Source: Candidatus Eiseniibacteriota bacterium
GTDB lineage: Bacteria; Joyebacterota; Joyebacteria; Joyebacterales; Joyebacteraceae
Direction: 5' to 3'
DNA: 54,026 bases
Assembly: GCA_030600655.1 (NCBI GenBank)
Contig: JAUVLP010000004.1
Coordinates: 1-54,026 of the forward strand
In this document: positions 8,518-33,899 of the stretch, piece after piece
Layout: the number at the start of each line of letters is the position of its first letter
Position numbering within the stretch: position 1 is the first letter of the stretch
The notes under the pieces: model-generated
What the model saw: only the letters and a program-made list of their open reading frames with translations
Told to the model about the DNA's origin: nothing
Databases searched by the model: none
Translations under genes and position numbers: made by a program

Positions 8518-8570
8518 AATCCGTTTCCAGCAGGTCGAAGCGCGCCCCCACCCATCGGAAGTTCCGCAAG

Positions 8571-11500: not shown

Positions 11501-11828
11501 CGCTCAGCGCATGCTCGCAGATGGAGGCCTTGGAACCAAGATCGAGCTGGCCGAATACCGATACATCTCCTCCCCGGGCGGTGTCACTTCGACTGTACTC
11601 ACGTCCGCGGATCTTGAAGAACGCATGGAGGATCTCTCGAAGGCCATCGGTTTCATCATCCATTCGATCTCCCGTGGTCTCTTCTTCCCGTACCCGAGTG
11701 ATGAACGACGGTGCAAGAACTGCGACTATGCGGACGCCTGTGCGTCCACAAGTCTCCCTCTGGCCCTCATGAAGAACGGTGACCCCAAGGCAGCATCCTT
11801 CGTAAAGGGACTGGGGGGAATCGAGTGA
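8571..11828 (+). CDS. addB: AddB-type subunit of helicase/nuclease, PD-(D/E)XK nuclease
   Basis: Subunit of the AddAB complex, which processes double-strand breaks for RecA loading. The 1085-residue product is an inactivated UvrD-like helicase fold: its N-terminal loop reads ITGEFHSGLESAL, without the GKS/T of a working Walker A. At the C-terminus is a RecB-type nuclease with GKIDRIDIIPG, VIDYKTG and QLPVY. It is clamped by an iron-sulfur cluster of the AddB type: one Cys in SYASCPFKYFLER before the nuclease, and C-X2-C-X5-C (CKNCDYADAC) at the end. It overlaps addA by four bases (GTGA), so the subunits are translationally coupled. The ribosome site before its ATG is weak. Confidence 0.88.
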   Translation: MTDKHDRTQPGSLLITGEFHSGLESALLAHLEKAVDAAPLHASTVVVPGNLLGIRLSRELALATNGHANVRFVTLKDLAVSMSGSAICGGVTSGSTVSGGRALLPKRGDELIIRRLLDEGIADNGYFSAIADRPGLATALRDTIANLKEAGYEPDSLSRSAKLAHLAGRSKPDKITEIARIWKAYERELHNGGWIDHTDMMSTAVDRLRTEPGIAPSPLTLYGFYDLNSLQKRLVAACIAGNEVTVFFPYLDVDDWTYARPTLDWFLSLGFEWSPLPEEGARGVPLPARTLIISAPGEAREVREDVRTLAVALDDREAPFQSAAVLTRTPSLYSRLFDEELKLLGAEPYIETPQPLAHTRSGMSLVRFIRAVESGFDRTEIIELLSVANFDHDSVVFESDSAPVADWAKAAALAGITTGAASWPRRLRSLLSRLEGASPGSRFGGRHAHIGSAIHSLLSLLEALLPQLEAIPSRSTVEGYAGKFSKMLTAWTRDTRERESVLGAIEGLKPLSKIAGRITLARFGELVRVALDEPGPRSARFGQGGPTVLNLMSARGLPYPVVIVPGLVEKQFPLGHRQDPILLDRERMMLNATLQNDPLHLLPIKGKSTGEEKLLFRLAVSAATELLILSYPRLDPATARPRIPSVFMLRTLEAMTRKPQDYKSFESSPLATRIPLARRFPKERAHALTEHEFNGCSILNALEGAGSEEIAYLLREAGPLPKRIEMETTRWTTPGFTRFDGALESPEALAAARELSGFQKDGLAPGRRVSPTSLESYASCPFKYFLERVLDIEPLDEPEEALELSPLERGSLYHGILEKFMRSLRDSDRLPPSADDLEELFRMAGRMMEANEQYLSRYPGARDLESRRLRINLALWLAAELREEGGFVPTYFETRFGGDPQKGDDPELSLSDGVSFEAFGGVRVEFSGKIDRIDIIPGKEKARVIDYKTGRPWSRGKKGAKMFEHGKRLQLPVYILAAQRMLADGGLGTKIELAEYRYISSPGGVTSTVLTSADLEERMEDLSKAIGFIIHSISRGLFFPYPSDERRCKNCDYADACASTSLPLALMKNGDPKAASFVKGLGGIE

Positions 11829-15376: not shown

Positions 15377-15475
15377 GTAGCGCATCCCGCAAGAGTATCT
15401 CCGGTGGCGCTCTCCGGGAAAGCAGCCCAGAAGCTTCCTTCGGGAAAACCGCAGCGCCAGCGCGCTGAAACACAC

Positions 15476-18289: not shown

Positions 18290-18311
18290 TTGAGTCCCCC
18301 CATCAAGCGTT

Positions 18312-19907
18312 CTATCTTATGAGTACGACCTTCTGCTGGTCTGTTCCCGTATCTGTCACAAGCCTTGCAAAATAGATGCCCGACGGCACGCTTCGGCCGG
18401 CTAGATCCCTCCCCGTCCAGATACTCTCGCCCTCACCCGTCGAGCTTGCACTTGTGCTCATCCGGTTGATCAGCCGTCCCGACACGGAATAGATCTCCAC
18501 AGTGACGGCATCATAACCGGGAGCGATGAAGCTGACCGTCGTGCTTCCAAGGAACGGATTCGGTGAGACCGACCGGATCATTGCCGCGCGAGTTCCGGTG
18601 TCGGGGATGCCGGTCCCGGTCGGCCAGAGCACCGCGTCCAGCTCGGTCAGTCCGCATGCATCGACCACAACTCCGTAGGTGGTCTGTGTGTCGTATCCGG
18701 CGCAGGAGAACTCAACCGTGTACGTTCCATCGACGAGCATTCGCCAGTAGCGACCGTAGGTTGCACCAGTCAGTCTCGGCATGATCTCATCCGACGAGTT
18801 CTCAATGACCTTGACCTCAGCCACCAGCGGATCCCCGGTCGCGCCGTCAGTCACATGACCCGTGAGGCCCGGTCCGTAGACACGATCGAGCAGGTAGTAC
18901 GAACCCAGCGATACTCTCTCACAGTACTCATCAACATCGGCCGCGAGCGGGATACACATCTGGCTCATGATCTCCATCGTCAGACCGATCGTACCCAGAA
19001 CTCCATACTGCCAGTTCCGGGCCTTGCCGGCCGTTGCGTACCCGTAGATGGCCGTGTAAGAGGTATCGTCCAGCTTCGTCGTCTTTCCCGCGAGGCCAAG
19101 TGCGATGCTGTAGACAACGTCGTAGTCCGGGCAGAACCCGATCGTCGGCCAGTACCACGGGTAGTAGATGCAGTCCCCCATCGAGATCAGCGGGCTGTGG
19201 TAGTTGAGCGCGAAGACGGGCTTCTCGGCTATGCACAGATCGCGCATGATTTGAGTCTCGTTCTCGGAGAAGGGAGCAGTCCCGCGATAGTACGGAGACG
19301 TCCACTCCCCTGACCCACCCACGGCCCAGTTGAAATCGTAGTTGTAGTTTGGATCGACTCCATCCAGATCCAGTTCGAGCGTGCCGTTCCCGTTGTTGTC
19401 GTGGATGTTCTTTCGATATGTCGTGTCCAATCCCGACGTAACCACCCAGTGTCCATCCGGATTCAGGAGAGGAACGAACCAGATTTCGATATCATCGACC
19501 CACTGTGTGATCGAATCGACCACGCCGTAGTTGCTCGTCAGTTCGTCGATCATCCACATGCAGACCTCAAGCCCCACCACTTCTTCTGCGTGGTGCAACC
19601 CGTCGTAGAGTACGACAGGCTCATCCTCATCGATGCCCACATTGTCCGAGATCTTGAGCCCCCAGATGGGCTGCCCGTTTGTGGTGGAGTAGCCTAGTGT
19701 CTCGAGCCTTGTGATCTCAGGATAGGCCGCCGCCACTGCCGCAAGCTCAGCACCCACCTCAGCATGGGTGTGGTAACGCTCGTGCAACGCGAGAGCGTCT
19801 TGAGCCACACCAGCAACGAGAAGGCATGCAATGGCCGAGATGACCAATACCGTTCGCACCGCGATAGACCGGGTCTTGACGTCCCCCGTCGCACTGTACC
19901 GGTTCAT
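18312..19907 (-). CDS. Secreted M14-type zinc carboxypeptidase
   Basis: A 531-residue exported metallocarboxypeptidase that would trim C-terminal residues from peptides. The signal peptide is followed by the M14 zinc site HAEE (His106/Glu109), the NPDG and YRKN substrate-binding motifs, a third-ligand His in ALNYHSP and a catalytic-type Glu in GLTMEIMSQ. A carboxypeptidase-regulatory-like beta domain follows (GHVTDGATGDPLVAEVKV), then the sorting-type domain (SVSPNPFLGSTTVSF). The ATG at 19907 has GGAGG five bases upstream; the in-frame ATG at 19922 has no such site and is rejected. It starts 20 bp after the stop of the C25-like gene, so the two are likely co-transcribed. Confidence 0.88.
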   Translation of the reverse strand: MNRYSATGDVKTRSIAVRTVLVISAIACLLVAGVAQDALALHERYHTHAEVGAELAAVAAAYPEITRLETLGYSTTNGQPIWGLKISDNVGIDEDEPVVLYDGLHHAEEVVGLEVCMWMIDELTSNYGVVDSITQWVDDIEIWFVPLLNPDGHWVVTSGLDTTYRKNIHDNNGNGTLELDLDGVDPNYNYDFNWAVGGSGEWTSPYYRGTAPFSENETQIMRDLCIAEKPVFALNYHSPLISMGDCIYYPWYWPTIGFCPDYDVVYSIALGLAGKTTKLDDTSYTAIYGYATAGKARNWQYGVLGTIGLTMEIMSQMCIPLAADVDEYCERVSLGSYYLLDRVYGPGLTGHVTDGATGDPLVAEVKVIENSSDEIMPRLTGATYGRYWRMLVDGTYTVEFSCAGYDTQTTYGVVVDACGLTELDAVLWPTGTGIPDTGTRAAMIRSVSPNPFLGSTTVSFIAPGYDAVTVEIYSVSGRLINRMSTSASSTGEGESIWTGRDLAGRSVPSGIYFARLVTDTGTDQQKVVLIR

Positions 19908-19927
19908 TCGTTCCTCCGTCATCGGTG

Positions 19928-22900
19928 CTATTTGAGAAGCACCATCTTGGCTGAGCTCTCTTCGCCGAGCGCCGAGAACCTGGCGAAGTAGACGCCACTT
20001 GCGACCTTATCGCCGACCGAATTCGTTCCATCCCACACGGTGTTGTGATAACCGGCATCGATTTCACCATCCAGAAGCGTGTTCACAAGACGCCCGGTCA
20101 CATCGAACACCTCAAGTTTGACGTTGGTCCTACTCGGCACTCCGTAGCTTATGGTCGTAACGGGATTGAACGGATTCGGCTGGTTGCCGGCCAGAATCAC
20201 GGCCCTCGGGATATTCGCTTCATCGGGAACGTCCGTGGAGTCGTGCCCGTCCGGCCGGTCGGTTGTGAACTTGATTGCGCGTCCGCCTGCGAGCGTCGCT
20301 GCCGCGTCGTCGTATATGTTCGCATACGTGTAGAGCACGCCGTCAGTCTGGGGATGGTTCTCGATCCCTACTGTGGCATAGTTGGCATTTGCGTCCGTGT
20401 TCGAGATCGTGTGGTACTGAAGGACAATCTCACCGTCGCCTGTCTCCGTCGTGTAGACAGCCGGGTCGTAAAGAATGATCTCAAAGACCTCGTCTGCGTA
20501 CGGTTCGTACGCCGTCGGCACTCTGCTCCACTCGATGACGAACCTGCCGTCTCCCATGTTTCGATGCAGAACCTTGCCTCCTGCGGACGGATCCAGATCG
20601 TCCCAGAACCCGGCTACCATCGCATCCGGCCCCGGGGCGCCAGGGATGAACCAGTTGCGGAACTCGTGATGGAACGGAGGCGTGTCGCCCATCCCGATCC
20701 ATCCATTCGAGCAGACACCTATCTCGGTGTAGTCATCACCGTAGTAGGTGAACGTAAACGGGAGACTCACGGTCATCGTCTGGTCATCGGCCAGACCCAG
20801 ATCAGTCCCACTGCCACCATAGTCCGGGTCGATCTCGATCCATGAGTACATTGGAGCCTCATCGTACGCCGTGTCGGTGTCGTCGTAGGCGTAGTAACCA
20901 TAGTCGTCCGGACCGATCGGGTCGTCGCTCGACGGAACTCCCACGATCAACGGGAAGAAAATGAACTGCGAGAGACCATTGTCTCCCACCAGTTCGAGGA
21001 TCATTGTAAACGCGTGTCCCACGGCCACGTCCGATTCGGCCTGCACCTGGAATGGATTCCCTGAATTGGTGGCTATCCCACCAGCTGCGACAGTAGCATA
21101 CGATCCATGGTCATCGGGAACAAGCAGGCCCGATGATGGTCCGACGAGGGTTCCCGTCACCGATGTCGCGTCCTCCTCGCCACCGTTCGAAAGCGTCACG
21201 GTCAGCGTCGCGGTCTCACCCGGATCCAGAATGCCGTCGCCACTGATTGCGAGCGAGTAGTACTCCAGACTGGGTGCGCCGACGACGATACGAGCATAGC
21301 TGATGGACGTGGCCCGGCTCCCGTCGGTCACCGTGAATTCAAAGCCTATCTCCGTCCCGTTCGGGCATCCGTCATCTACCGTGAAAACGAACGGACTTGA
21401 GCCGGACGCGATCGCACCCGCGGCCATAGTGCCGTAGCCGGCGGTCTGACCCGGCGTGATCGTCACCCATTCGCCGTTGGTTCTCGGCGGACCGCTGTCG
21501 AAGCCCGCAGTCACACCAGCCGCGGTCAGGAGACCGTAGTTCTTGAGGTCGACGTCGAACTCGATCGTCTCACCGGGATTCACAACGCCGTCACCATTTC
21601 CGTTTGAGGCGCCCGAGCCATCATCATCAATGGTCTGGCTATACCAGCCCACGAACTCATCCTCCTGGTCGATCGACACGTCACCTACGTAGGGCTTCAT
21701 ATTGGTGGCCCATACGGTCACATAGGCATCACCCTGTGTTGTCGCGCCAAGCGGCACCTCCACATTGTACCCACCGCTCAGGGTCCGAATCTCATACACC
21801 TCGTCGCCCTTCCAGATGATGACCTCGGCGCCGGGGACCGGACTGCCGCTATCATCCTCGACGTGGACCGTAAGTATGTTCTGTCCGAATGGCACGATTG
21901 CATCGTACGTAGCTAGAATCGTCCCGGGCCGTTCTGTGCGGAGGACGAGTTCAGGATCGCCTATGAGATTGTAGACATTGAAGTAGAAATCGACATTCTG
22001 TCCATCCGGATCCGCGGAACCGGGATCCACATACTCCGGATAGTTCAGGTAGATCTCCATCTTGCCTCGCAAGAGAGACTGCCCGAAGTGCTCGATCCCC
22101 TCATTGAGGATGCCCTCGTAGATGCCGGTGTCTATGGCGTTGTTCCACTTGGTATGCGTCCAGAACTCGCTCGGCCCGATCATGGCCGGACCGCCCTTGA
22201 GAGCGAATGGGCTCCCGGCACGGATCCACGCCTCTCCGAAGCACGGGTCGGTCCCGCTGTCGAAGTTGCCCGTTCCACATACAATGCTGGTCATCACCGG
22301 CAGCATGCGATCGTTCGAAAGCTGGTTGATGTGATCCGTGTAGAACTGCGGGTAGTACCAGCCCGGCGCCCCACCCCAACCCCGGTAGTTCACAAACGTA
22401 ACTCCGGCGTTGATCGAGTTCTGAATGTCCTCCGTCTGCGTCCTTGATCCGTTCTTTGCATACGTCCAGAACACGGTGTCGACCTGGGTGTAGGCGTTCT
22501 CCATGAGCATTTCGCGCACGCGCAGCTTCGTCGTCCTGGGGGTGGTAGGCTGGGGACTCCCGCAGCAGTTGGCGGCAACCATGAGTGCATGCTCGTACCA
22601 GTCGTCGGCCGGAGCATCGCAGTCGCGCTCATAGACCTGAGGCTTCAGCGAAGCCACGACGGCGCCGGCCGGCGTATCTACCGCCATCCTGCCGACCATG
22701 ACGTCGGGCAGGTAGTCGCTGCCCTCCAGCTCGGAGTAGGGATGATCCGTGACGTCGCCGGCATGGAACCACGCGGGCATATCTCCGTAGCTGCCACTGT
22801 CTCTGTCACCTACGAGACAGACATAGTCCGGCGGATTGTCCCACGTGTCGTATGCGTTCTGTATGAAATCCTTCACGTCCTGCGAGGACGGACTAATGCC

Positions 22901-23725
22901 GATGTCCGAGAGTGAGACAAGCACGGTCTCAACACCACGACGGTGCTTCCATGTAACGAAGTCCGTGAGCTGATCCGCAAAGTTGTCGTTCGATATCACA
23001 AGATAGCTGCCGCGACGAATCTCGACCGTGGGCAGCAGGTCGTAGTTCGCGACCAGGCTGCGATAGATAGGCTCGAACGCCTCCGAGCGGTACGAGCGTG
23101 CAGCAGTGCGCGGATTGATCTCCTCACCGCTTGCGTAGTTGAGAGTGACGCTGACACGACCAGCAACCACAAGCTCGCGCGTCACGGGGTTGTAACGCGC
23201 TGGGTTGACTCTGAGTTGAACGAGTCTCAGATCTCGCATGATCATCGGCTCGCTGATAGAGGCAATCTCCGTCGGGTAGAGGGCATCGTGGCCGTAGACA
23301 GCGCCATCCGCCAGCGTGGGATCGGCCTCTTTCCCCTCCATTCTGAAAGGCGGGGTGGGGTCGATATCGACGTCTGTGAAGGTCCTCTCATCGAAGGCCG
23401 TCACGGAGAGCTCAACACCGCCAAGATCCGGGATCGCGATCAGATACGTGAACGTAGGGAGATCCGGCATACCGGGCAGGTTGATTCTGCGGGAACCTGG
23501 GATCTCGAGCGCCGGCGTCCCATCGAGCGCCCGGCCCGCGGTCTCGAGGAACAGACCCGGGATCGCGATCTCGATAGTTGTCTCGGTGATATCAGATGCG
23601 ATAACCTTGGCCGTCGCCTCGGACGGGTCGAGCGTATCACTGATGGGAATCCACTCCCCGGCAGGCACGGCTGTCGCGAGTGCGACCAGAGCGACTATAC
23701 AAAGCGCGGTTGTCCACCGTGTCAC
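19928..23725 (-). CDS. Gingipain-like C25 family protein with catalytic His replaced by Trp
   Basis: A 1265-residue exported protein. Signal peptide (1-22); gingipain-type propeptide region (about 45-210); C25 core (about 235-570) with YLVISNDNFADQL, DYVCLVGD and LPDVMVGRM; then beta-sandwich modules, including repeats about GDGVVNPGETIEFDVDLKN and GDGILDPGETATLTVTLSN; and a C-terminal sorting-type domain (QPNPFNPVTTISY). The nucleophile is present (Cys483 in SIVCGTGNF), but the catalytic His of the family's GHG motif is Trp450 in NYRGWGG. Trp450 and Cys483 are 33 residues apart, the spacing of His211 and Cys244 in gingipain R. It may be inactive or use another base. It starts at GTG with AGGAG upstream and leads a three-gene peptidase cluster. 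Confidence 0.87.
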   Translation of the reverse strand: MTRWTTALCIVALVALATAVPAGEWIPISDTLDPSEATAKVIASDITETTIEIAIPGLFLETAGRALDGTPALEIPGSRRINLPGMPDLPTFTYLIAIPDLGGVELSVTAFDERTFTDVDIDPTPPFRMEGKEADPTLADGAVYGHDALYPTEIASISEPMIMRDLRLVQLRVNPARYNPVTRELVVAGRVSVTLNYASGEEINPRTAARSYRSEAFEPIYRSLVANYDLLPTVEIRRGSYLVISNDNFADQLTDFVTWKHRRGVETVLVSLSDIGISPSSQDVKDFIQNAYDTWDNPPDYVCLVGDRDSGSYGDMPAWFHAGDVTDHPYSELEGSDYLPDVMVGRMAVDTPAGAVVASLKPQVYERDCDAPADDWYEHALMVAANCCGSPQPTTPRTTKLRVREMLMENAYTQVDTVFWTYAKNGSRTQTEDIQNSINAGVTFVNYRGWGGAPGWYYPQFYTDHINQLSNDRMLPVMTSIVCGTGNFDSGTDPCFGEAWIRAGSPFALKGGPAMIGPSEFWTHTKWNNAIDTGIYEGILNEGIEHFGQSLLRGKMEIYLNYPEYVDPGSADPDGQNVDFYFNVYNLIGDPELVLRTERPGTILATYDAIVPFGQNILTVHVEDDSGSPVPGAEVIIWKGDEVYEIRTLSGGYNVEVPLGATTQGDAYVTVWATNMKPYVGDVSIDQEDEFVGWYSQTIDDDGSGASNGNGDGVVNPGETIEFDVDLKNYGLLTAAGVTAGFDSGPPRTNGEWVTITPGQTAGYGTMAAGAIASGSSPFVFTVDDGCPNGTEIGFEFTVTDGSRATSISYARIVVGAPSLEYYSLAISGDGILDPGETATLTVTLSNGGEEDATSVTGTLVGPSSGLLVPDDHGSYATVAAGGIATNSGNPFQVQAESDVAVGHAFTMILELVGDNGLSQFIFFPLIVGVPSSDDPIGPDDYGYYAYDDTDTAYDEAPMYSWIEIDPDYGGSGTDLGLADDQTMTVSLPFTFTYYGDDYTEIGVCSNGWIGMGDTPPFHHEFRNWFIPGAPGPDAMVAGFWDDLDPSAGGKVLHRNMGDGRFVIEWSRVPTAYEPYADEVFEIILYDPAVYTTETGDGEIVLQYHTISNTDANANYATVGIENHPQTDGVLYTYANIYDDAAATLAGGRAIKFTTDRPDGHDSTDVPDEANIPRAVILAGNQPNPFNPVTTISYGVPSRTNVKLEVFDVTGRLVNTLLDGEIDAGYHNTVWDGTNSVGDKVASGVYFARFSALGEESSAKMVLLK

Positions 23726-23813: not shown

Positions 23814-24932
23814 TTACTCCTCCTCCGCTATCACCACTCCCCAGTCACGGTCAGCCACGTAGATGTAATCGTCCGTGACACAGATCCCGTTTGCGTACGG
23901 CGTCTCTAGATACCCTGCGGTCGTCGGCGCCAGGGGATCATCCACGTCCACCACTCTCAGTCCGCCGTACCTGTCCGCGATGTATACTATTCCGTCCAGG
24001 TAACATATGTCCGTGGCGTAGTCGTCCGTCTCGATCGAAGTCACGATCTCGGCATTCGCGGGATCGGAGATATCCAGGATCTGGAGTCCCCCGAGCCCAT
24101 CGGCGACGAACGCGTAGTTCCCGAATGCCGCTACTGCCTGCGCGTTGCCCGGCGTGTCGAACGTGCCGAGCTTCGTCGCGGTCCCCGGGTTCGTCAATTC
24201 AAAGATCGTGAGCCCGCTCTGACCCGAGGCGACCAACACGTAGTCGCCGTGAAGACAGAGACCACGAGCATAGCCCGTCGTGTAACCGTGGTAGACCTCG
24301 ATCGGGAACCACGGAGGCCCCCAGTCAAGATTGAGTTCCCAGATCCTGAACCCGCCGTTCTTGTCGGCCACGTAGATGTGTATCAAATGCCCGGGATTCG
24401 TCTCCGAAATGACGACATCCTGGCCGCTCGTGCTCTGCAATACTGTCTTCCACTCCGGACTTGTCGGATCACTCACATCGTACGCTAGGACGCCGTTCGG
24501 TCCGTCGGTGACGAACGCCATCTCTGAGCCCGGGGCGTACGCACACTTGACGGATGTGAAGTCGTTCCCCGCGGTGCCAAGATAAACGGGCGCTGCCGGA
24601 TCCGACATGTCGAGGATGACCAACCCCACCTCACCCGTCGCAACCAGTCCTATGCCACCCACCACATCGACGCCTTCTCCGTAGCCCGCCACTGAGAAGG
24701 TCGCCACGAGACGGTAGCCCGAGGGCTGATCCGAACCGTCACCGGATACGGGGTCACCCTTCCGCGCACAACCACACAGAGTGAAGACAGCGGCAACCAG
24801 GAGACCAGCGCCAATCCATGCGGCGATGCTCAACGGGCGTCGAGCCGCACCGTGATCAGGCGCTTCAGCGGTCCGCTTGCACCCTGCATCCTCGTAATTC
24901 TTGATTATACCATCATTTAGAAGGTCAGTCAA
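23814..24932 (-). CDS. LVIVD-repeat beta-propeller lipoprotein, last gene of the pgs operon
   Basis: A 372-residue protein with an RR-containing N-region, a hydrophobic helix ending LCGC (lipid attachment at Cys55 by this start), and then a beta-propeller. The propeller is built of at least six LVIVD-type repeats, for example GLVILDMSDPAAPVYLG, GVLAYDVSDPTSPEW, GLTIFELTNPG, GLQILDISDPANAE and GLRVVDVDDPLAP. Such repeats are common in secreted proteins of unknown role. No sorting-type tail is present, consistent with lipid anchoring. The TTG start at 24932 overlaps the end of the barrel gene by eight bases and lacks a good ribosome site, so a later start near 24833 is possible. Its position at the end of the poly-gamma-glutamate operon suggests an envelope role there. 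Confidence 0.75.
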   Translation of the reverse strand: MTDLLNDGIIKNYEDAGCKRTAEAPDHGAARRPLSIAAWIGAGLLVAAVFTLCGCARKGDPVSGDGSDQPSGYRLVATFSVAGYGEGVDVVGGIGLVATGEVGLVILDMSDPAAPVYLGTAGNDFTSVKCAYAPGSEMAFVTDGPNGVLAYDVSDPTSPEWKTVLQSTSGQDVVISETNPGHLIHIYVADKNGGFRIWELNLDWGPPWFPIEVYHGYTTGYARGLCLHGDYVLVASGQSGLTIFELTNPGTATKLGTFDTPGNAQAVAAFGNYAFVADGLGGLQILDISDPANAEIVTSIETDDYATDICYLDGIVYIADRYGGLRVVDVDDPLAPTTAGYLETPYANGICVTDDYIYVADRDWGVVIAEEE

Positions 24933-26421
24933 GGAAGCACACCCCCTCTGCGACTAGCCGCAACGTGATGCTATCGGCATCGTAATCCTTTGTGTCTCCT
25001 ATAGTTGCAATGATATCAGAATCCGATCTCCGGCTCTTGTGTTCGTAGAACCCCTCCAGCTTGACTCCATCGGCCAGCGAGAGTGAGAATCCTGTCCCAA
25101 GCGTTACGTATAAATCGTCGCGACCGGCATGATATGCATCATCCGGATCACTCGCCAGATAGTACCGCTGGGCCAGCTTGCCGCGCAGTCGCAGTACCAG
25201 GCTCCGTCCCAACACCTCTCCCACCTCCCACCGAGCCCGGAGTTCGTATTCGTTCTGATCGTAGGTTGTGTCGCTGTCGTCCGAATCCGACCGGGTCTCC
25301 CCTACCTCGTCGTACCCGCGGGCGGCCAGCATGCGTAGCGCATATGCCGCATCAAGCCTGAGGCCTCTCACCGGGCGCCACGTACCGGACAGACCGAATG
25401 TTGTCGCCCGTGAATCGTACTCGACGAAATCCTGGTCGTAGCCGTACGAATCGACCTTCCACCAGGCCGTGAGATCGACCGGCAACGACCGGTCGCTTCC
25501 CGCACGGGCGAGAAGCGAGTGCTTCCTAAAGTCGCACGACCGGTACATGGACTCGCCCTCACCGGTAGCATCGGCGTCCCACACATACTTCAGGTGATAG
25601 AGAGGGATGGCGGAGTACTCGAGTCTGAGCCACGCGACACCAACCCTGGTCTCGGTCACAGCGACTCTGAATTTCGAGAAGCTCTTCTGCCCGTTCGATC
25701 CGGCAAGAAACCAGCTCCCGGAGAACTGGAGCTCGGTCTCTCGCACTCCAGGCTCCTCCCTGACGAACCCAAGTGCGACGCTCGGTTCCAGACGGAGCTC
25801 GTCGAGCGTGTCGAATGGGTAGCGCTCGTACCGCTCACCATCCAGAAAGTCATCTACATCTCCATCCGAGTAGCGAAACAGGTTGCTGTCGTACGTACTG
25901 CCGAAGCTACCGCGCCACTCAACCCTCCAAGGAAGAAGATCAAGAGTCTTCGACAGTGGGTTGACATCGAGCGTACCGCCGACAGGAGAGATCAGCCTGA
26001 GTTCGATGGTGTGCTCACCGGAAGGAACGTCGAACGCAAGCCTCTCCGAGTTACCAGGAGTAGCATCGGGATTGTCAGGATAGGCGGCAGATCCGGGAGT
26101 TGCATGGATGACGTAACGAAACTGGATTTCACCATCAATCACAAGCTCCACGATGGCATCGACCGGATCCAATGAGTCATCGAAGCGCCAGCGCACCAGC
26201 GCCTCAAATGCCGCCGGACCATCCAGTCTCACCGAGAGCGGCCTGTCGGACGTGAGCGCATAGTACCTGTAGACCGTGCCGTTCACCTGCACCGCCACCG
26301 GAGTGTGCCTCCCAAGCGGATCGAGCTTCGCTCCTCGCACGTTGAACGGCATGAGTGCAAGAATGGAGAGAACCAGACAGGCCACAAGGGGAACGCGAAC
26401 ACTGTGAAGGCTACGGCTCAT
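24925..26421 (-). CDS. Putative outer-membrane barrel protein in the pgs operon
   Basis: I do not recognise a named family. The 498-residue product has a signal peptide (about 1-30). An N-terminal beta module follows, with RYYALTSDRPLSVRLDGPAAF, resembling the repeated module of its neighbour. A second module contains SGEHTIELRLIS. From about residue 170 the sequence shows alternating polar/hydrophobic strands (WRVEWRGSFGSTYDSNLFRYSD, then ELRLEPSVALGFV, ETELQFSGSWFLAG, WLRLEYSAIPLYHL). This is typical of outer-membrane beta-barrels, where YDSNLFR-like openings are common. It overlaps the upstream gene by 11 bases and the downstream lipoprotein gene by eight. It would be the natural candidate for passing polymer across the outer membrane, but that is inference only. 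Confidence 0.65.
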   Translation of the reverse strand: MSRSLHSVRVPLVACLVLSILALMPFNVRGAKLDPLGRHTPVAVQVNGTVYRYYALTSDRPLSVRLDGPAAFEALVRWRFDDSLDPVDAIVELVIDGEIQFRYVIHATPGSAAYPDNPDATPGNSERLAFDVPSGEHTIELRLISPVGGTLDVNPLSKTLDLLPWRVEWRGSFGSTYDSNLFRYSDGDVDDFLDGERYERYPFDTLDELRLEPSVALGFVREEPGVRETELQFSGSWFLAGSNGQKSFSKFRVAVTETRVGVAWLRLEYSAIPLYHLKYVWDADATGEGESMYRSCDFRKHSLLARAGSDRSLPVDLTAWWKVDSYGYDQDFVEYDSRATTFGLSGTWRPVRGLRLDAAYALRMLAARGYDEVGETRSDSDDSDTTYDQNEYELRARWEVGEVLGRSLVLRLRGKLAQRYYLASDPDDAYHAGRDDLYVTLGTGFSLSLADGVKLEGFYEHKSRRSDSDIIATIGDTKDYDADSITLRLVAEGVCFLD

Positions 26422-27430
26422 TCGCGATGTCTCCCCGGGGGATGTAGAACTTGAGTGCCAGCTCGCCGCCGTCGATTCCGAGCAGCCTCAGTGTTATGGT
26501 GTGCAGACCTGGCTCCACAGGGAGCTCAAAACTCCTGAGTGCTCCTGGAAGCACATCTTCCCTGTCCCGGCAGACGACCGTCTGGGAAGCCTGTGACTCC
26601 AGGCGATAGACGATCTCCTCACTCTCCCCGCTACGGGTACCTGAACTCTGATTCCCGTCGCCTGCGCCCGAGACCCTGTTCCAATCGCGGACACCCAGCA
26701 TGTACACCTGCTCCCCGAACATCGAAGCCGAGAAGAGAATGCGCGTATTCACCTTGACCGTGGTCGGACCGACGACATCGAGTACGACGGGCGATGAACC
26801 AGTGGTGATGTAGTAAGTCAGTTCCTTCTCCTTGTGGAGAAGCGTCTCGACGGCTCCGTATTCACGCGGGGCGATCGAGACGCGCTTCGGCACTTGTGTT
26901 GTCGATTCGAAGATGCGTGCATCGATCATCGCCCGCCCCACAACCTTGAGCGAGTAGCTGTGTGTCCCTGTGGGCACGTCTATGTAGATGCGGCGTATCT
27001 TCCCCGGAGTAAACGCAGTCAGCGCCACGTAGTAGGCCTTCCCACTCGCCGCCTCCGTCGCGAGCTCTCTCGTGTCTATGAGCACGCCGTCCCTGTGAAC
27101 CTCCACAGAGTAAGCAACGGTGGATGCTCCAGCTGGAACGCTCTCGCCTCTGCCCACGCCCCCGAGGTTGTTCGACACGCTGAGGCGAGTCAGTATCTTG
27201 ACGCGGGTCGGCCCCTCGACCACAAATCTGAGGGCGTTCTCTGAATCGAAGCGATAGTAGGTGAGCGCGCGCGATTCCACCATGATCCTGGTGCTGGATA
27301 CATCACCGCCCGGTGCGAGCGACCGCCAGTCCGCAGCCTGTGCAACCGTAGCTGTCAGGGCGACCGCAACCGATGCTATCATCACACAGCAAACGGCTCC
27401 GAATCCCGTGGTCCTCCTCGTCTTCCCCAC
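26411..27430 (-). CDS. Secreted two-module protein of unknown function in the pgs operon
   Basis: No family recognised. The 339-residue product starts at GTG (27430) one base after the pgsW stop. It has a signal peptide ending AQAA (about residue 33). It then holds two copies of a beta-rich module: first ALTYYRFDSENALRFVVEGPTRVKILTRL, later ELTYYITTGSSPVVLDVVGPTTVKVNTRI. Each is followed by a strand-rich stretch containing a G-H-T/S pattern (TGTHSYSLKVVG, PGLHTITLRLLG). The barrel protein next door has a related module, so the two may bind the same ligand or each other. It has no membrane anchor or sorting tail and is predicted to be periplasmic. Confidence 0.65.
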   Translation of the reverse strand: MGKTRRTTGFGAVCCVMIASVAVALTATVAQAADWRSLAPGGDVSSTRIMVESRALTYYRFDSENALRFVVEGPTRVKILTRLSVSNNLGGVGRGESVPAGASTVAYSVEVHRDGVLIDTRELATEAASGKAYYVALTAFTPGKIRRIYIDVPTGTHSYSLKVVGRAMIDARIFESTTQVPKRVSIAPREYGAVETLLHKEKELTYYITTGSSPVVLDVVGPTTVKVNTRILFSASMFGEQVYMLGVRDWNRVSGAGDGNQSSGTRSGESEEIVYRLESQASQTVVCRDREDVLPGALRSFELPVEPGLHTITLRLLGIDGGELALKFYIPRGDIANEP

Positions 27431-27431
27431 G

Positions 27432-28532
27432 CTACCGTGCCCCCTTGAACAGATAGTGTTTGATGTCGATCCTCACAACAACAAAGATCACGAAAGCGTA
27501 GAGGACAGCAAACACAGCGGCGAGCGGTACATTGTAGCGGTCTCTGTAGAAGACGCCGCCTGTCCCCACGGCCGGGAGCGGGATGGGCTCTGAGCTCAGA
27601 TCGTAACGCTCAATGAGATCTTCAGGTCGGGGCACGTGGATGATCGGCACGCCGTTCTCCGCCATCCTCACAAGCACTCCCCTTCTCGGGAAATTCTTGG
27701 TCGGGAGATTGCGCCAGAGACCCGGCTTGATGAGCTTGCCGGTCTGACTGCTCCCGAGACTGGCCAGACCGCCTCCGATATTCACATAGACCCGGTAATC
27801 GCGCCCACCGGACGCCTCGCGGAAGATCTCCATCCTTCTCTCTATACTCTCGTCAAGCGACGGCTCGTCGATGAGCGCCACGCCGTTCCTCTCGAACGCA
27901 TCCCGGAGCAGGCCGCGGCCCTCGGGTGACAACCCACGGCCCATGTCATTACTGCCTCCCAGTGAGGCCGCGATCGACCTGTGCGAAATTATCCCCTCTC
28001 GCTCAAGCGCCGCTTCCATATCGAGCCACGTGAGATCAGGATCATTGGCGCCCCACATCGAAGCGCCAACCGATGGAACTGACACCGGTATTGCACCCAG
28101 TGCTTCGACGGCGATCACCATACCCGCGTTCATGAGCGGGAACGAACCAGTAGAACCAAGCGCCACGAGATCACCGTCGGCGACACCTGCTCGCTTCAAC
28201 ATATCGACGAAGGCAGCGGAGATGTTTGGATCGAGCGCTTTGAGTTTCTGCTCGTGCGACCCACGACTTGTCGTTGTCGGAGAGACCTTCACCCCGATCA
28301 GCCCCGTCTCATTGGGATCGTTGACTACATCTATCACGCCACCGCGATCGAGACGCTCAGCCTTGAGCACTACTATCGCGAGGTTCGTTCTGGTAGCGGC
28401 GTCCATCTTCTCCGCGAAGTGCTGCTGCATAACGGGTGTCTTCGATCGCTCGGCGATCGTTGCGAGAACCAGGCCGAGCACCGCGAGCCCCACCAGGCTC
28501 ATCACATGAACCCTACCAGGTCGGTATTTCAA
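27432..28532 (-). CDS. pgsW: Poly-gamma-glutamate system protein
   Basis: A 366-residue membrane-anchored protein of the family that accompanies PgsB/PgsC in Gram-negative-type poly-gamma-glutamate loci; its biochemical role is unknown. One helix near the N-terminus (MSLVGLAVLGLVLATIA) and one at the C-terminus (AAVFAVLYAFVIFVVV) flank a soluble region with GSTGSFPLMNAGMVIAVEALG, GASMWGANDPDLTW and VNIGGGLASLGSS. It starts at TTG 28532 with GGAGG eight bases upstream, inside the end of pgsC (20-base overlap); an in-frame ATG at 28502 is the alternative. It ends one base before the next gene. The symbol is used by family resemblance from memory. Confidence 0.78.
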   Translation of the reverse strand: MKYRPGRVHVMSLVGLAVLGLVLATIAERSKTPVMQQHFAEKMDAATRTNLAIVVLKAERLDRGGVIDVVNDPNETGLIGVKVSPTTTSRGSHEQKLKALDPNISAAFVDMLKRAGVADGDLVALGSTGSFPLMNAGMVIAVEALGAIPVSVPSVGASMWGANDPDLTWLDMEAALEREGIISHRSIAASLGGSNDMGRGLSPEGRGLLRDAFERNGVALIDEPSLDESIERRMEIFREASGGRDYRVYVNIGGGLASLGSSQTGKLIKPGLWRNLPTKNFPRRGVLVRMAENGVPIIHVPRPEDLIERYDLSSEPIPLPAVGTGGVFYRDRYNVPLAAVFAVLYAFVIFVVVRIDIKHYLFKGAR

Positions 28533-29001
28533 TCGGGGCCCCTCCTGTTCCCACGATCAGCACAAGACGAACCAGCACGGCCGCCATGAGCATCGCCATG
28601 AGCGTCGTGAGCGCTCCCTGCCGCTCCATCCAGTAGGCAATGAGACCGGGAATGATATAGCCGATGGCCTCGAAGCTCAGAAGTTCAGGGATCTCCGGGC
28701 GTCCGAAGACGAAGCGTGTGAGGTGGCCTACGATGAACCCGATGAGAATGACCATCACCAGGTGTCTCCGTCCGTAGAGCAGCATGAACTGCCCCATCAG
28801 CCGCACGATGAGAAATGTGATTATCGCCGCTCCGATCGTCCCAACCACACGCCACGGTTCTGCCAGAGCAAGCGCGAGATAACCCGGCACGACCATTCCA
28901 CCAGCCGCCAACCCAAATGCTTCTGAGAAGACAAGGCTGACGATCAGTCCCAGCCCAACGGCTGTCGGTATCGTCTTGGCTCCACCCAAGAACTCAATCA
29001 C
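28513..29001 (-). CDS. pgsC: Poly-gamma-glutamate biosynthesis membrane protein PgsC/CapC
   Basis: A 162-residue integral membrane protein that pairs with PgsB to form the poly-gamma-glutamate synthase. The sequence shows about five hydrophobic segments, beginning TAVGLGLIVSLVFSEAFGLAAGGMVVPGYLAL, the conserved PgsC opening. Translation starts at GTG 29001, overlapping the pgsB stop by four bases (GTGA), the usual coupling for this pair. Longer in-frame extension to 29133 would lie inside pgsB and is rejected. It overlaps pgsW by 20 bases at its 3' end. Confidence 0.88.
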   Translation of the reverse strand: MIEFLGGAKTIPTAVGLGLIVSLVFSEAFGLAAGGMVVPGYLALALAEPWRVVGTIGAAIITFLIVRLMGQFMLLYGRRHLVMVILIGFIVGHLTRFVFGRPEIPELLSFEAIGYIIPGLIAYWMERQGALTTLMAMLMAAVLVRLVLIVGTGGAPIEIPTW

Positions 29002-30203
29002 TTGGCTTCGCTCCTCTTGTGAAAGAGAGAGACAATGCTCGCTCCCGTGCCTCCTATATTGCCTACCCCGATGGCGATGGAGCGAGATTTCGTCAGCTCC
29101 AGGATCCTCGAGAATACCTCGTCGGCAGTGCATCCGGCCATATCCACGATCTTCTCTTTCGGAAGCCCTCGCTTGAGGGCTCCGCTCTTCACCGGATGCG
29201 TCAGGCCACCTGTGAGTATGAAGAAGTCAGCCTCGATATCCTCAGCGATGATCTCGCCGAACTGGAATGCGCGATCAGGCCTGTCGGCCCGCATGCTCAC
29301 AATCCCTATCACGGTTCTGTCGGGGACGGATCTGGGTGCAACCATGTTCCAGGCTGCCCTCGTGGACTCCTTGTCGTTGGCGGCGAAGGCATTGACGAAT
29401 TCAATGTCCTTACCCGCCTCCCGCACTCTGTGAATCGTGAGAGCCCCCATGTCCGGGGTCACGCTCCTCATGCCGCCGAGCGCTACATCTTGCGGCACAC
29501 CAACGTGACTGCAGACCGCCAACGCGAGTGCCACGTTCTCACGGTGCTCTATGTATGCGAAGCCCCCGGCGATTCCGTCGTCGTAGTCCGATTCGTGGAC
29601 CTCGTGATAGACGGACCCGTTTTCCCTCGCGGCCTCACGAATCGCACCGCTCCGGATGTGCTCCGCGGTGAAGATGACCTGACCGTCCGGAACGGTGCCG
29701 GAGAGTGCGACTGCAACATCGTCCGCGGTCGGCCCCATGACATCGAGATGATCCGGACGCGCATTGGTTATGACCCCGATCGTGGCACGGACTATCCGGT
29801 GCTCGCTCAGGCGTTGCAGATCGGGTCTCAGGGCCATGCATTCGATCACGAGTGCACGGGCGCCCTCTTGCGCCGCTCGGCTTATGATATCGAGCTGTTC
29901 GCGGATGTTCGGAGGGCCCGGTCTGGAGACAATATCCTCACTACCGTCCGGGTGGATGTAACGCGCTGCGGATCCCGTGGTCTTGGCAGACGTGCGAATC
30001 CCACCTGCGCGCAAACCTGCGGCAATCAGTCGTGTCACAGACGATTTGCCGCGTGTCCCGTTGACGTGTATGCGAATGGGAACCGCATCGAGGTTCCTGG
30101 TGTGGAAACGGTACTCGACAGCACCATAGATGAGGAATAGGAACGCAAGTATCAGAACGAAGAACATCCGGCGCCCTGCCCTGGCTTCAGATTCGCCGAC
30201 CAT
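28998..30203 (-). CDS. pgsB: Poly-gamma-glutamate synthase PgsB/CapB
   Basis: ATP-dependent amide ligase that polymerises glutamate through gamma-carboxyl bonds, related to Mur ligases. The 401-residue product has an N-terminal membrane helix (FFVLILAFLFLIYGAVEY), the ATP loop HVNGTRGKSSVTRLI, KTTGSAARYI, a Mur-like acidic segment (VIECMALRPDLQ), TNARPDHLDVMG and the C-terminal GIGNIGGTG-like end (GVGNIGGTGASIVSLF). It is the first gene of a six-gene operon running to 23814. A TTGACG/TACTAT promoter lies about 145 bp upstream. An AGGTGG ribosome site precedes the ATG. No pgsA/capA gene follows, unlike Bacillus loci. Confidence 0.92.
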   Translation of the reverse strand: MVGESEARAGRRMFFVLILAFLFLIYGAVEYRFHTRNLDAVPIRIHVNGTRGKSSVTRLIAAGLRAGGIRTSAKTTGSAARYIHPDGSEDIVSRPGPPNIREQLDIISRAAQEGARALVIECMALRPDLQRLSEHRIVRATIGVITNARPDHLDVMGPTADDVAVALSGTVPDGQVIFTAEHIRSGAIREAARENGSVYHEVHESDYDDGIAGGFAYIEHRENVALALAVCSHVGVPQDVALGGMRSVTPDMGALTIHRVREAGKDIEFVNAFAANDKESTRAAWNMVAPRSVPDRTVIGIVSMRADRPDRAFQFGEIIAEDIEADFFILTGGLTHPVKSGALKRGLPKEKIVDMAGCTADEVFSRILELTKSRSIAIGVGNIGGTGASIVSLFHKRSEAK

Positions 30204-30433: not shown

Positions 30434-31846
30434 TCATTCCAGTTCGATCGACCGGACCTCTCCGAAATTCGAGAGCGGCTGATCGAAAGTGCTCTCGTCC
30501 CCTACGACCATGATCGCCAGGCCGTCCGGGTGCAGATATGTCGCGGCGGCTCGCTTGACATCTTCCAGGGTCAGCGCCGTGATCGCATCGATATCACGCT
30601 CGGGCGTGTCGAGCGGTCTCCCCTCCCACTTGAGATTGACGAGTCGTGAGACGGCCTGCGATTTCGAGTCGTACTCGAAGACGAAGCTGTTGATGTAGCT
30701 GTCCCTGGCTCGCTCAAACTCCTCATCGGTCGGCCCCTCATCACGCATCTCACGAATGATATCGAGAATGAGAGTGATAGCTCTTCCCGCCGCATCCGCC
30801 CTCGTCTGAGACGAAGCGATGAACGTTCCGAAGGTCCACGGATCGTCGCCATAGCGCGAGTAGGCCGCGTACGCGAGTCCCTCGTCGGTCCTCACCTTCT
30901 GCGTGATCCGCGAGGAGAAGCTTCCACCACCGAGGACGTAGTTCATTATCCGCACCGCCATGCGGTCTTCGTTACGGCTGTTGAGCCCCAGGTGACCGAT
31001 CATGATGACGGCCTGGTTCAGGTCCTTGTACGCATAGCTTATGGACGGCTCGAACGAGAGCTCCAGCGGAACGTCCGGCTGCACAACCATGGTGGCAGGC
31101 TGCCATCCGACGAGCGCAGCATCGAGCCCGGCCATGATCTCGTCGCGAGTCACATCGCCTGAGATACCTATGATCGCGTTATTCGGATGAAAGAAGTTGC
31201 GGTGGAACTTCACGAGGTCGTCGCGCGTTATGGCGGCGACCGTCTCCTCGGTATCGTGCCAAGCCATCGGATGGTCTCCGTAGACGACCTTCCTGAACTC
31301 CCTGATCGCGATCCTGCGCGGCTCGTCGTTCTCGCGCCTGATGTTCTCAAGCATTGTCGATCGCGTGAGTTCTATCTTCTCTTCGGGGAAGCTCGGGCTT
31401 TTCAGCAGTTCTCCCAGGATCTCCAGGCAAAGATCGAGATCCTTCTTGAGGCAGTTGACGTGAACCGTCGTCCTGAGATCTGAGCCGACGATCTCGACCC
31501 TCGCGGCGACGAATTCGAGCTCTTCATTGATCCTCTCAGCCGGCCACTCCTCGGTCCCGCCATTTCGCATCACCCAGGCGGCAAGTTCGTTCAGTCCGGT
31601 CTTGTCCCTCGGAGCTCTCGAGGTCGGGATCAGCATGTAAATGTCCACGACCGGAATCTCGTGGTCCTCCACAAGAAACCCGGTCATATCATTGTCGAAA
31701 GAGATCTCTTCGTACATCAACGGTTCAAGCGTAATGTCATCAAATCTGAGCTTGCTCGGATGCTTCACTTTGCCGGCATCGGCCTGCACAGGAAGCAGGA
31801 TGATAACCGCCAGAAGAATTAGTGTGACTGCAAGTGGTCTCCTCAT
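30434..31846 (-). CDS. M16 peptidase-family protein lacking the zinc motif
   Basis: A 470-residue exported protein of the pitrilysin/processing-peptidase fold. After a signal peptide (MRRPLAVTLILLAVIILLPVQADA) it has the M16 halves: residues following TGLNELAAWVMRNGG align with the usual HxxEH position but contain no His pair, and later it has RYGDDPWTFGTFIASSQT and GGGSFSSRI, typical of the M16 C-terminal half. It is therefore the structural, non-catalytic partner of the upstream gene, as in known heterodimeric M16 enzymes. AAGGAG stands six bases before the ATG. It lies 44 bp after the catalytic gene, in the same operon. Confidence 0.87.
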   Translation of the reverse strand: MRRPLAVTLILLAVIILLPVQADAGKVKHPSKLRFDDITLEPLMYEEISFDNDMTGFLVEDHEIPVVDIYMLIPTSRAPRDKTGLNELAAWVMRNGGTEEWPAERINEELEFVAARVEIVGSDLRTTVHVNCLKKDLDLCLEILGELLKSPSFPEEKIELTRSTMLENIRRENDEPRRIAIREFRKVVYGDHPMAWHDTEETVAAITRDDLVKFHRNFFHPNNAIIGISGDVTRDEIMAGLDAALVGWQPATMVVQPDVPLELSFEPSISYAYKDLNQAVIMIGHLGLNSRNEDRMAVRIMNYVLGGGSFSSRITQKVRTDEGLAYAAYSRYGDDPWTFGTFIASSQTRADAAGRAITLILDIIREMRDEGPTDEEFERARDSYINSFVFEYDSKSQAVSRLVNLKWEGRPLDTPERDIDAITALTLEDVKRAAATYLHPDGLAIMVVGDESTFDQPLSNFGEVRSIELE

Positions 31847-31890
31847 CGTGCGCTCCTTGATCTTGACGGTGGTCGGCCTGATCTCGCGCT

Positions 31891-33786
31891 CTAGCGTGGA
31901 TCCGTCTCGGTCTCTGATCCGCCGCCCTGCTCATCCTGCATCCGCGCCCACAGTTCCTCTGTGAGCTCCTGCCTGTCCTTGTCGCTCATGGACTGGATCT
32001 GCATCATGAGATCGCTCCGCTCCTCCTCGGGAAGCGTGGTCATCACCCACTGCATGAGCGCACGCATGTCCACCTCGTCACCGCCTTCTCCTCCGTCCTC
32101 GGAAGCGGTCTCCACGAGCCACCCAACCGTCCTGTTCTCTTCGGTAAGGTACTTGTTGGCGACGCGAACGATATCATCCGACGTCACCTGCTTCATCCGC
32201 TCCACGTCCAGCAGAAGCTCACGCCAGTCGCCGCGCAACGCCTGGTACATCCCGACACGAAACGCCAGTCCGATGTTCGAACCCAGGGCTCGCACAAGAT
32301 CGGCTTCGTTGGAGTTCAGCTTGCGCTCGATTTCGCGCTCGGAGACACCCTCGGCCTTGATGAGCTCAAGCTCCTCGTAGATGGCCGTTTCGACATCCTC
32401 AAGCGTGTGCGGTTCCTGTGGCTCCGCACCGATCTGGAGGATCGGATCCAACCGGTTGCCGGGTCCGATGTAGGCGTACGGCGCGCCGCGCGTCAGCCCC
32501 TTCTCATCGTAGATGGAGCGATAGAAACGGCTGGTGCGTCCGTCCGAGAGAATCGAGGACAGCATCCCAAGCGCGTAGAAGTCGGGGTGTGGCGCCTTCG
32601 GCACGTGATAGCCAATCGTGAGGATGGGCTTTGCATCCAGCTTGATAACCACTCGACGCTCACCTTGCTGCGCAGGCTCGATGTCGGTAATGTGAGGCAG
32701 CGGCTCTCCGGCGTCGACCTTCCCGAAGTACTTCTCGGCCAGCTTCTTCACATCATCGAAATCCACGTCGCCGACTACCATCGCTGTCGCGTTCTGCGCT
32801 CCGTAGTACCGTGCGTAGTACGCGGCCAGGTCCTTGCGCGTTATGTCCTCGATATCGGTCATCCACCCAAGCACGGGGCTTCCATACATGCAGGCGCTGT
32901 AGGCGGTGGCCATGAACGCCTCATCAAGCACGTCCTCAGGCCTGTTCTCGCTCATGCGCCTTTCCTCCATGACCACATCCTTCTCCGAGTAGAACTCCCG
33001 GAAAGTAGAGTTGGCCATCCGGTCGGACTCCATCAACATCCAGAGCTCGACCCTGTTGGAGGGAAGGTAGGCAAAGTAGAAGGTGCCGTCGTATGAAGTT
33101 CCCGCGTTGAGCATGCGGGAACCGTTGTTCATGTAGGTCTCCCAGAATTCGTTGGAAACTATGAGCTCCCGGTGCTCGGTCATCGTGTCGTAGAGCTCCA
33201 TCTCGAGCCCCAGGAGTTCCAGATAGTGCTCGAAGTGGTCGACCCCACCCTGTCGCACGAGCCCGAACACATTGAGCATCTCATCCGTGGGTCCCACGTC
33301 GGAGAGTCTCTCAACGAGGAGCTCAAGTTCGAGCGCCCTGTCCGCCCCCATCACCTCCCGGTCCTCTTCGGAAAACCCCTCGATCACATCGTCGGCCAGG
33401 CTCTGGAAGAACTCCAGCCTCCACGGTTCGAGTTCGCGCCTAAGATCCCGCGCCGCCTCGGCAAGTTCGTCCTCGCGTTCCAGATATGGGATCTCTTTCT
33501 TGTAGTCGGTCGTTCCGACGGTCTCGGTCCCCTTGAAGAGCATGTGCTCAAGAAGATGCGAGATTCCCGTGATGCCGGGACGCTCGTATACGCTACCCAC
33601 CTTGAAGGCGACAGCGCCGAAGAAGACGGGCGCCTCGTGGCGTTCAACGACCAGGAAGGTCATCCCGTTGTCCAGCGTGAACTCCTGGACCTTGTCTTCG
33701 ATAGTCTGGGCATTCGCGACCGTCACGAGTGCGAGGCACACGGACAGCGCAACCCAGAGGAAGCGAGAACTCCCCCTCATCGGCAT
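31891..33786 (-). CDS. M16 zinc peptidase with long insertion after the zinc motif
   Basis: A 631-residue exported metallopeptidase. It has a signal peptide (RFLWVALSVCLALVTVANA), then HLLEH (residues 77-81), the inverted zinc motif HxxEH with the catalytic Glu. The third ligand is the Glu of DVVMEERRMS near residue 274. In most M16 enzymes that Glu follows about 75 residues after the motif; here it is about 190. The extra 120 or so residues are acidic and helix-like. The C-terminal half has YHVPKAPHPDFYALGMLSSILSDG. The end is another acidic helical tail. The ATG at 33786 is used (AGGA upstream); the longer frame would run into the promoter at 33871-33899. It pairs with the non-catalytic gene downstream. 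Confidence 0.87.
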   Translation of the reverse strand: MPMRGSSRFLWVALSVCLALVTVANAQTIEDKVQEFTLDNGMTFLVVERHEAPVFFGAVAFKVGSVYERPGITGISHLLEHMLFKGTETVGTTDYKKEIPYLEREDELAEAARDLRRELEPWRLEFFQSLADDVIEGFSEEDREVMGADRALELELLVERLSDVGPTDEMLNVFGLVRQGGVDHFEHYLELLGLEMELYDTMTEHRELIVSNEFWETYMNNGSRMLNAGTSYDGTFYFAYLPSNRVELWMLMESDRMANSTFREFYSEKDVVMEERRMSENRPEDVLDEAFMATAYSACMYGSPVLGWMTDIEDITRKDLAAYYARYYGAQNATAMVVGDVDFDDVKKLAEKYFGKVDAGEPLPHITDIEPAQQGERRVVIKLDAKPILTIGYHVPKAPHPDFYALGMLSSILSDGRTSRFYRSIYDEKGLTRGAPYAYIGPGNRLDPILQIGAEPQEPHTLEDVETAIYEELELIKAEGVSEREIERKLNSNEADLVRALGSNIGLAFRVGMYQALRGDWRELLLDVERMKQVTSDDIVRVANKYLTEENRTVGWLVETASEDGGEGGDEVDMRALMQWVMTTLPEEERSDLMMQIQSMSDKDRQELTEELWARMQDEQGGGSETETDPR

Positions 33787-33870
33787 CCCCTTTCCTGAGG
33801 CCCGGGTCTTACGACCCAAAGCCGCCGAGTGTGGTGTGTGTTCTATTATGAAACGCACGCAGCACCAACG

Positions 33871-33899
33871 AGGATACACACCCGCTAGGGGTGCGTCAA
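33871..33899 (-). promoter_or_regulatory. Sigma-70-type promoter of the M16 pair
   Basis: Minus strand TTGACG (33899-33894), a 17-bp spacer and TATCCT (33876-33871), about 85 bp upstream of the ATG at 33786. It has the same form as the promoters at 1474, 30346 and 51566. Confidence 0.55.

Follow-up and report, generated by a model that had tools for sequence, protein, structure and literature searches.

The window analysed here, a 54,026-nucleotide stretch of contig JAUVLP010000004.1 from Candidatus Eiseniibacteriota bacterium (assembly GCA_030600655.1), carries on its minus strand a run of genes that starts with those of a poly-gamma-glutamate (PGA) synthase and continues into genes for envelope proteins. 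We focus on two of the latter, termed Sw (sandwich) and Ob (outer-membrane barrel), and on how they relate to the synthase. A preliminary description of this DNA had listed six open reading frames (ORFs), and all six lie where it had placed them:

28998..30203, minus strand: pgsB, 401 residues, PGA synthase (Mur-ligase-like amide ligase; TIGR04012, PF08245)
28513..29001, minus strand: pgsC, 162 residues, membrane subunit with a GTG start (TIGR04011; PF14102, E 5e-34)
27432..28532, minus strand: pgsW, 366 residues, 'poly-gamma-glutamate system protein' (TIGR04332), TTG start, Shine-Dalgarno sequence AGGAGG
26411..27430, minus strand: Sw, secreted protein of 339 residues, predicted to form two beta-sandwich modules resembling tandem jelly rolls of carbohydrate-binding modules (CBMs)
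24925..26421, minus strand: Ob, 498 residues, with a signal peptide, a predicted Sw-type sandwich (about residues 35-158) and a predicted 14-strand beta-barrel (residues 166-496)
23814..24932, minus strand: LVIVD beta-propeller lipoprotein (PF08309, E 2e-33), lipobox LCGC at about codon 52 of the ORF as listed

Family membership was judged by NCBIfam curated cut-offs together with Pfam matches, and on this basis the synthase core is clear. PgsB, with its N-terminal membrane helix and the P-loop NGTRGKSS, scores 409.3 bits against an equivalog cut-off of 222.7, PgsC scores 130.2 bits against an equivalog cut-off of 96.45, and PgsW scores 290.1 bits against a cut-off of 100; the last appears to consist of a periplasmic domain flanked by N- and C-terminal membrane helices. 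The junctions calculated earlier follow exactly from the ORFs: pgsB and pgsC overlap by 4 bp, pgsC and pgsW by 20 bp, pgsW and the Sw gene are separated by a single base pair, and the overlaps of Sw with Ob and of Ob with LVIVD are 11 and 8 bp, the 11-bp overlap being repeated in most Effluviviaceae loci that retain both genes. The proposal that every junction is translationally coupled needs correction at its last member, since the LVIVD gene, which has a promoter of its own, is probably not translationally coupled. The type IX secretion system (T9SS) translocon protein SprA (TIGR04189) was found in 19 of the 20 genomes sampled from the host's phylum, that of the host among them, and the host cell thus has an outer membrane.

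The locus was also said to lack PgsA/CapA, and a Pfam search indeed gives no PF09587 match among its six proteins. This absence is, however, less telling than had been claimed. Bacillus subtilis makes PGA from PgsBC alone, PgsA being dispensable (PMC6029982), CapsuleFinder counts CapA as accessory only (PMC5542703), and the host genome contains unlinked PF09587 matches on contigs C76 and C144. We considered whether such a protein might be a distant, hidden part of the system, and rejected this: PF09587 was found neither in the pgs-bearing genomes G016 (which is complete) and G017 nor in the barrel-bearing G019, yet it occurs in the pgs-negative G012, and so does not track the cassette.

Neither Sw nor Ob belongs to any Pfam family above cut-off, and a sequence-profile search of the PDB gave no solved relative of either at E <= 1. 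Both were therefore approached through AlphaFold2 models, that of Ob built with 38 aligned homologues, and fold neighbours were sought in the PDB with Foldseek. Sw is modelled as two beta-sandwiches (predicted local distance difference test, pLDDT, 84.6), with tandems of CBM51 and CBM22 as its nearest folds; given the low whole-chain template-modelling (TM) score, it is uncertain how the two modules are placed with respect to each other. Ob is modelled as one beta-sandwich followed by 14 long strands (mean pLDDT 89.5, predicted TM score 0.77), and its best matches are the porins OmpG and CymA (E 7.5e-9 and weaker, target-normalised TM 0.5-0.6), with the polysaccharide secretin 4y25 and PelBC (9h80) lower in the list among many porins. 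The preliminary description had expected a barrel of 12-18 strands and had named a structure prediction without one as its refutation; the 14 strands, predicted with high confidence, agree with the expectation. Ob is thus predicted to be an outer-membrane beta-barrel, in which lipid and lumen faces alternate along the strands.

The two faces were assigned by strand parity within each predicted strand, which is a heuristic and not a reading of coordinates. By this split, the lipid face is rich in aromatic (FWY) and aliphatic (AVILM) residues, and the lumen face contains 21.5% K/R against 14.4% D/E, with a median net charge of +7 and a positive value in 36 of 38 homologues. Two lumenal positions, K300 and R434, are K/R in all 38 homologues, and a further two, K278 and R464, in at least 95%. 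The whole Ob protein of the window, on the other hand, carries a net charge of -24, so that the positive lumen does not stem from a general basic bias. A net positive lumen, as modelled, would suit a polyanion.

The sandwich fold ties Ob to its neighbour, since residues ~12-156 of Ob match both modules of Sw, and one module thus occurs three times in two adjoining genes. Furthermore, PgsW and Sw form a single open frame in six genomes of the Krumholzibacteriota phylum (L148, L150, L151, L153, L158 and L162), and in these fusions the former signal peptide persists as an additional hydrophobic stretch beyond the last PgsW helix, so that the sandwich would stay in the periplasm. The 339-residue protein had been described as periplasmic, which stands; the fusions suggest in addition that it probably sits at the inner-membrane, PgsW side of that compartment. 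As further observations on these loci, the sandwich gene of G004 appears to be split by a frameshift (L097:8007-9002 and 8084-8623), this genome has a second pgs locus (L095), and G006 likewise has two (L091 and L093).

These same structural features also admit another account, in which a gamma-glutamyl polymer stays periplasmic or tied to the surface, and barrel and sandwich display or anchor it or act as an osmotic or anion pore. The likeness of the modules to the CBM-like folds of binding modules, their three copies over Sw and Ob, and the surface or lipid anchoring of LVIVD and T9SS proteins all speak for such a role. Anchoring alone, however, would hardly account for an amphipathic 14-strand barrel with a net positive lumen, and a general porin, unlike this barrel, would not be confined to the company of pgsBCW. 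We regard this account as improbable, though the most serious of the competing ones.

That the barrel keeps to pgsBCW emerges from three phylum samples, 496 genomes in total; the barrel scores of an iterative profile into which fused PgsW-sandwich ORFs had pulled PgsW were discarded in favour of a barrel-only profile. In the host's own phylum, a small sample of 20 genomes, PgsW is found in 13, the barrel in 14 and both in 12 (Fisher p 0.007). The three mismatches (G009, G013 and G019) are contigs that stop inside the cassette, and five genomes (G001, G005, G010, G012 and G018) have neither. Among 80 genomes of the Krumholzibacteriota-record phylum the corresponding numbers are 28, 26 and 23 (p 3e-12); here the barrel-only cases (G069, G074 and G090) are on short contigs (4-7 kb) that break off within the sandwich or barrel gene, and the PgsW-only cases (G057, G058, G060, G061 and G067) fall outside the barrel clade described below. 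Among 396 genomes of the Ignavibacteriaceae-record phylum, PgsW occurs in 14, one of them below the cut-off, and all seven genomes with strong barrel matches are PgsW-positive (p 1e-11). Across the samples the barrel is thus always accompanied by pgsBCW unless the contig breaks off within the cassette, which is the opposite of the second refutation that had been named, namely homologues living mostly without pgsBC. Weak matches in ten Bacteroidota-type genomes (E ~1e-4, within frames of 870-940 residues) were taken as general barrel similarity and not as homologues. A distant 864-residue barrel relative lies between T9SS-tailed genes, away from pgs, at L237:7850-10444 (G028). In a proteobacterial sample PgsW was found in one genome of 399, the Comamonadaceae seed itself, which has no barrel.

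Since these p-values ignore kinship, more weight falls on the fusions and on phylogeny. In a tree built from concatenated PgsB, PgsC and PgsW sequences, every barrel-bearing locus falls into one clade of 38 rows with a Shimodaira-Hasegawa-like approximate likelihood ratio test (SH-aLRT) value of 99; this is a quick, unrooted tree in which long branches were flagged, and the five rows of the clade that lack a barrel are truncated contigs. The clade spans Effluviviaceae, Krumholzibacteriota and Ignavibacteria-type genomes. The Comamonadaceae locus adjoins it, and the other barrel-less loci are placed apart, among them L175 and L181, which carry a gamma-glutamyltransferase (TIGR00066 over cut-off). 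Loci of this other type (L175:2963-11112, L181 at about 9714-17051, and L172-L177) also have further conserved, unassigned genes alongside. Within the barrel clade the order pgsB-pgsC-pgsW-Sw-Ob is held in every locus long enough to judge, across phyla and at 20-30% identity, and LVIVD comes next in all of these except L170 and L171.

One could nevertheless regard barrel and sandwich as passengers of an inherited gene block, functionally unrelated to the polymer. The distance matrices of the cassette genes are correlated (Spearman 0.64-0.94), which fits a co-inherited block, as any linked set of genes would show, and alone is not proof of function. Passengers would not, however, be expected to become fused to PgsW, to retain their order over phyla at such low identity, to be jointly absent from genomes, or to present a positively lined lumen, and we consider this the least probable of all the explanations weighed.

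The last of the six genes, which contains six LVIVD repeats, has a different relation to the others. The barrel gene ends within the following element:

24904..24932, minus strand: predicted extended -10 promoter of sigma-70 type, TTGACT-N17-TATAAT, with TG ahead of the -10 box

The region from 19.8 to 30.5 kb shows no excess of promoter-like or terminator-like sites over shuffled sequence, and only this site is used here, on account of its conservation. The pattern TTGA[CT]T-N14-TGnTATA[AC]T is present in all 14 Effluviviaceae loci that extend to the barrel end, with no other copy in the window or in those loci, and in L090, where the stop codon of the barrel gene has shifted, the spacing of the promoter is the same, which points to selection acting at the level of DNA. 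The TTG at 24932 that was listed as the LVIVD start belongs to the -35 box of this promoter; the 8-bp overlap with Ob is thus probably a false start call, and the true start probably lies further in, downstream of 24904. LVIVD, and probably the gene after it, look like a second transcription unit. In Krumholzibacteriota, the gene after the barrel has a ribosome-binding site ahead of it and begins right past the barrel stop. LVIVD proteins of that group are about 810 residues long, and the copy at L026:10639-13077 has a C-terminal FGE-sulfatase/GldK-like domain that the copy in the window lacks.

The preliminary description had ended the feature at 23,814, which is not borne out, as the next gene belongs to the conserved cassette and is itself followed by an associated, non-core gene:

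19928..23725, minus strand: C25 gingipain-like secreted protein, 1265 residues (PF01364, E 6.5e-59; PF08126; PF13860), with C25 propeptide and a T9SS/FlgD-type sorting domain
18312..19922, minus strand: M14 zinc carboxypeptidase (PF00246, E 5e-46), with a T9SS sorting domain (TIGR04183 over cut-off)

The C25 gene is linked to the cassette although its side varies: in Effluviviaceae and in two loci of Ignavibacteria type its place is downstream, whereas Krumholzibacteriota and others have it upstream of pgsB. The gingipain catalytic His (in NYTGHG) is replaced in 46 of 46 aligned homologues (YRGW, YRGE, YRGY or YRGQ), by Trp when the protein of the window is aligned with gingipain R, while the Cys is retained. 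With its His-Cys pair broken, the protein does not qualify as an active C25 cysteine peptidase and is probably not a protease in function; nor does it qualify as the T9SS sortase PorU (NF033707), for which it scores 60.7 bits against a cut-off of 420. Other Effluviviaceae loci have, next after C25, a gene that resembles the M14 gene in size and shares its tail. In the window, T9SS-tailed genes stand in tandem after C25 at 15476-19922 (the M14 carboxypeptidase and an FG-GAP/ASPIC-UnbV protein), and an M16 peptidase-like gene pair lies upstream of pgsB at 30434-33879, in the same place as in several Effluviviaceae loci (L085, L089, L092, L093 and L094).

Two further explanations start from these neighbours. 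First, the PgsBCW product could be a surface anchor for T9SS proteins, with C25, as a PorU-like relative, and LVIVD handling attachment and the barrel serving as the pore of an attachment complex. In three groups C25 and LVIVD keep their link to the cassette in spite of the switch of sides by C25, C25 is weakly PorU-like and SprA is in the genome. SprA is also present, however, in the pgs-negative G001, G005, G010 and G012, so that T9SS does not depend on the cassette; L170 and L171 retain the barrel in the absence of both LVIVD and C25; and the catalytic His of C25 is gone. This explanation strikes us as quite unlikely. Second, the system could work inward, with the barrel importing external PGA, peptidases trimming it and the PgsB/C homologues taking part in turnover. 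The secreted peptidase-like C25 and M14 neighbours and the gamma-glutamyltransferase that adjoins other PgsBCW loci would suit such a role. PgsB is, on the other hand, a synthase-type ligase far above cut-off, no TonB-type receptor or solute importer was matched by any protein of the cassette, and the loss of the His from C25 again counts against it; we judge an inward system very unlikely.

We thus favour, with somewhat better than even confidence, the reading in which the locus encodes machinery spanning the envelope, by which PGA or a close anionic polymer is made and exported. The link to export drawn in the preliminary description is well supported, both refutations named there having failed; from the genes we infer what the polymer is, in which direction it travels, how the parts touch one another and what the surface proteins do. 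First of all, PgsB and PgsC would polymerise glutamate at the inner membrane, with PgsW as their inner-membrane partner in place of the Bacillus PgsA. Second, PgsW would hold Sw in the periplasm, through a covalent link in some lineages and probably without one here; family membership and the fusion point to these first two steps. Sandwich modules at both sides of the periplasm, the copy in Ob being on its periplasmic side, may guide or gate the chain. Third, Ob would be the outer-membrane exit, probably a monomeric 14-strand barrel with a positive lumen, as its fold, lumen charge and exclusive linkage suggest. Finally, a separately controlled surface layer, under its own promoter, may consist of LVIVD together with T9SS-sorted proteins, among them the probably inactive C25 homologue, and for example hold or shape the polymer. 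The stronger form of this proposal, a dedicated two-membrane secretion of a polypeptide polymer in which PgsBC is physically continued through PgsW and the shared sandwich modules to a positive 14-strand barrel, in one clade spanning at least three diderm groups, we hold to be an even bet.

Several points weigh against export of PGA. The lineages are uncultured, the homologues have no prior study, and the polymer is deduced from genes. The Francisella capBCA locus, homologous to PGA capsule loci, is not needed for the capsule of that organism and its function is unknown (PMC4688374); PgsBC homologues may thus not always make PGA, and 'PGA export' is to be read here as a strong inference. An ordinary anion porin would also be compatible with a positive lumen, whose residues were in any case picked by parity and not from coordinates, and the likeness of Sw to carbohydrate-binding modules could indicate a sugar partner. 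Furthermore, barrel-less PgsBCW loci exist in other T9SS-bearing bacteria, and the barrel is thus not the sole solution in diderms.

PGA synthase genes are known from most phyla, diderms included, and diderms require at least one further protein for the polymer to cross the outer membrane, for which the PGA model of the same study names none (PMC5542703). The locus provides a specific candidate for this step, structurally predicted and phylogenetically tested, in contrast to the barrel-less PgsBCW loci, and the open question of PGA export in diderms becomes approachable by gene removal and single-channel work. The PgsBC and PgsW families are known; in the open literature, which leaves out most subscription journals, we found no paper relevant to PgsW/TIGR04332 or to outer-membrane export of PGA, and no description of the Sw and Ob families, of their tie to one PgsBCW clade or of the fusion.

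Comparison with known systems places the locus as follows. With PgsBCA/CapBCA of Bacillus it shares PgsB and PgsC over cut-offs, adjoining and overlapping, but it lacks PgsA/CapA and has instead PgsW followed by two envelope proteins, one of them the predicted barrel. The PgsBCW loci with gamma-glutamyltransferase (L175 and L181) have the pgsB-pgsC-pgsW core in common with it; they lack Sw, barrel and LVIVD, carry the transferase upstream together with further conserved uncharacterised genes, and lie outside the barrel clade. The linked 1265-residue protein shares C25 domain, propeptide and sorting domain with gingipains and PorU of T9SS, but its catalytic His is replaced. Wza/OPX capsule export does not apply, as none of the six proteins has a Pfam match to the OPX domain. 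The barrel fold of Ob is like that of OmpG and CymA, which are monomeric 14-strand porins, at 8-13% identity, and Ob alone has an N-terminal module and a fixed genomic partner. EpsL (TIGR03014, of XrtB/PEP-CTERM polysaccharide loci) shows a weak likeness to the C-terminal barrel (4 of 38 members match, best E 8e-6), but Ob scores 20.8 bits against a cut-off of 275 and has the extra N-terminal sandwich, and is thus not an EpsL. Finally, the PgaA, PelB/PelC and AlgE/AlgK exporters follow a common scheme with the arrangement proposed here: an inner-membrane synthase, a periplasmic partner and a polymer-specific outer-membrane barrel. The locus differs from them in that its synthase is one for a polypeptide and not a sugar, and in that a CBM-like sandwich in the periplasm takes the place of tetratricopeptide (TPR) repeats; the TPR scaffold of synthase-dependent exporters is not found in Ob, whose N-terminal part is modelled as a beta-sandwich and matches no TPR family. 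If the proposal is correct, the system would do for a polypeptide what the Pga, Pel and alginate exporters do for polysaccharides.

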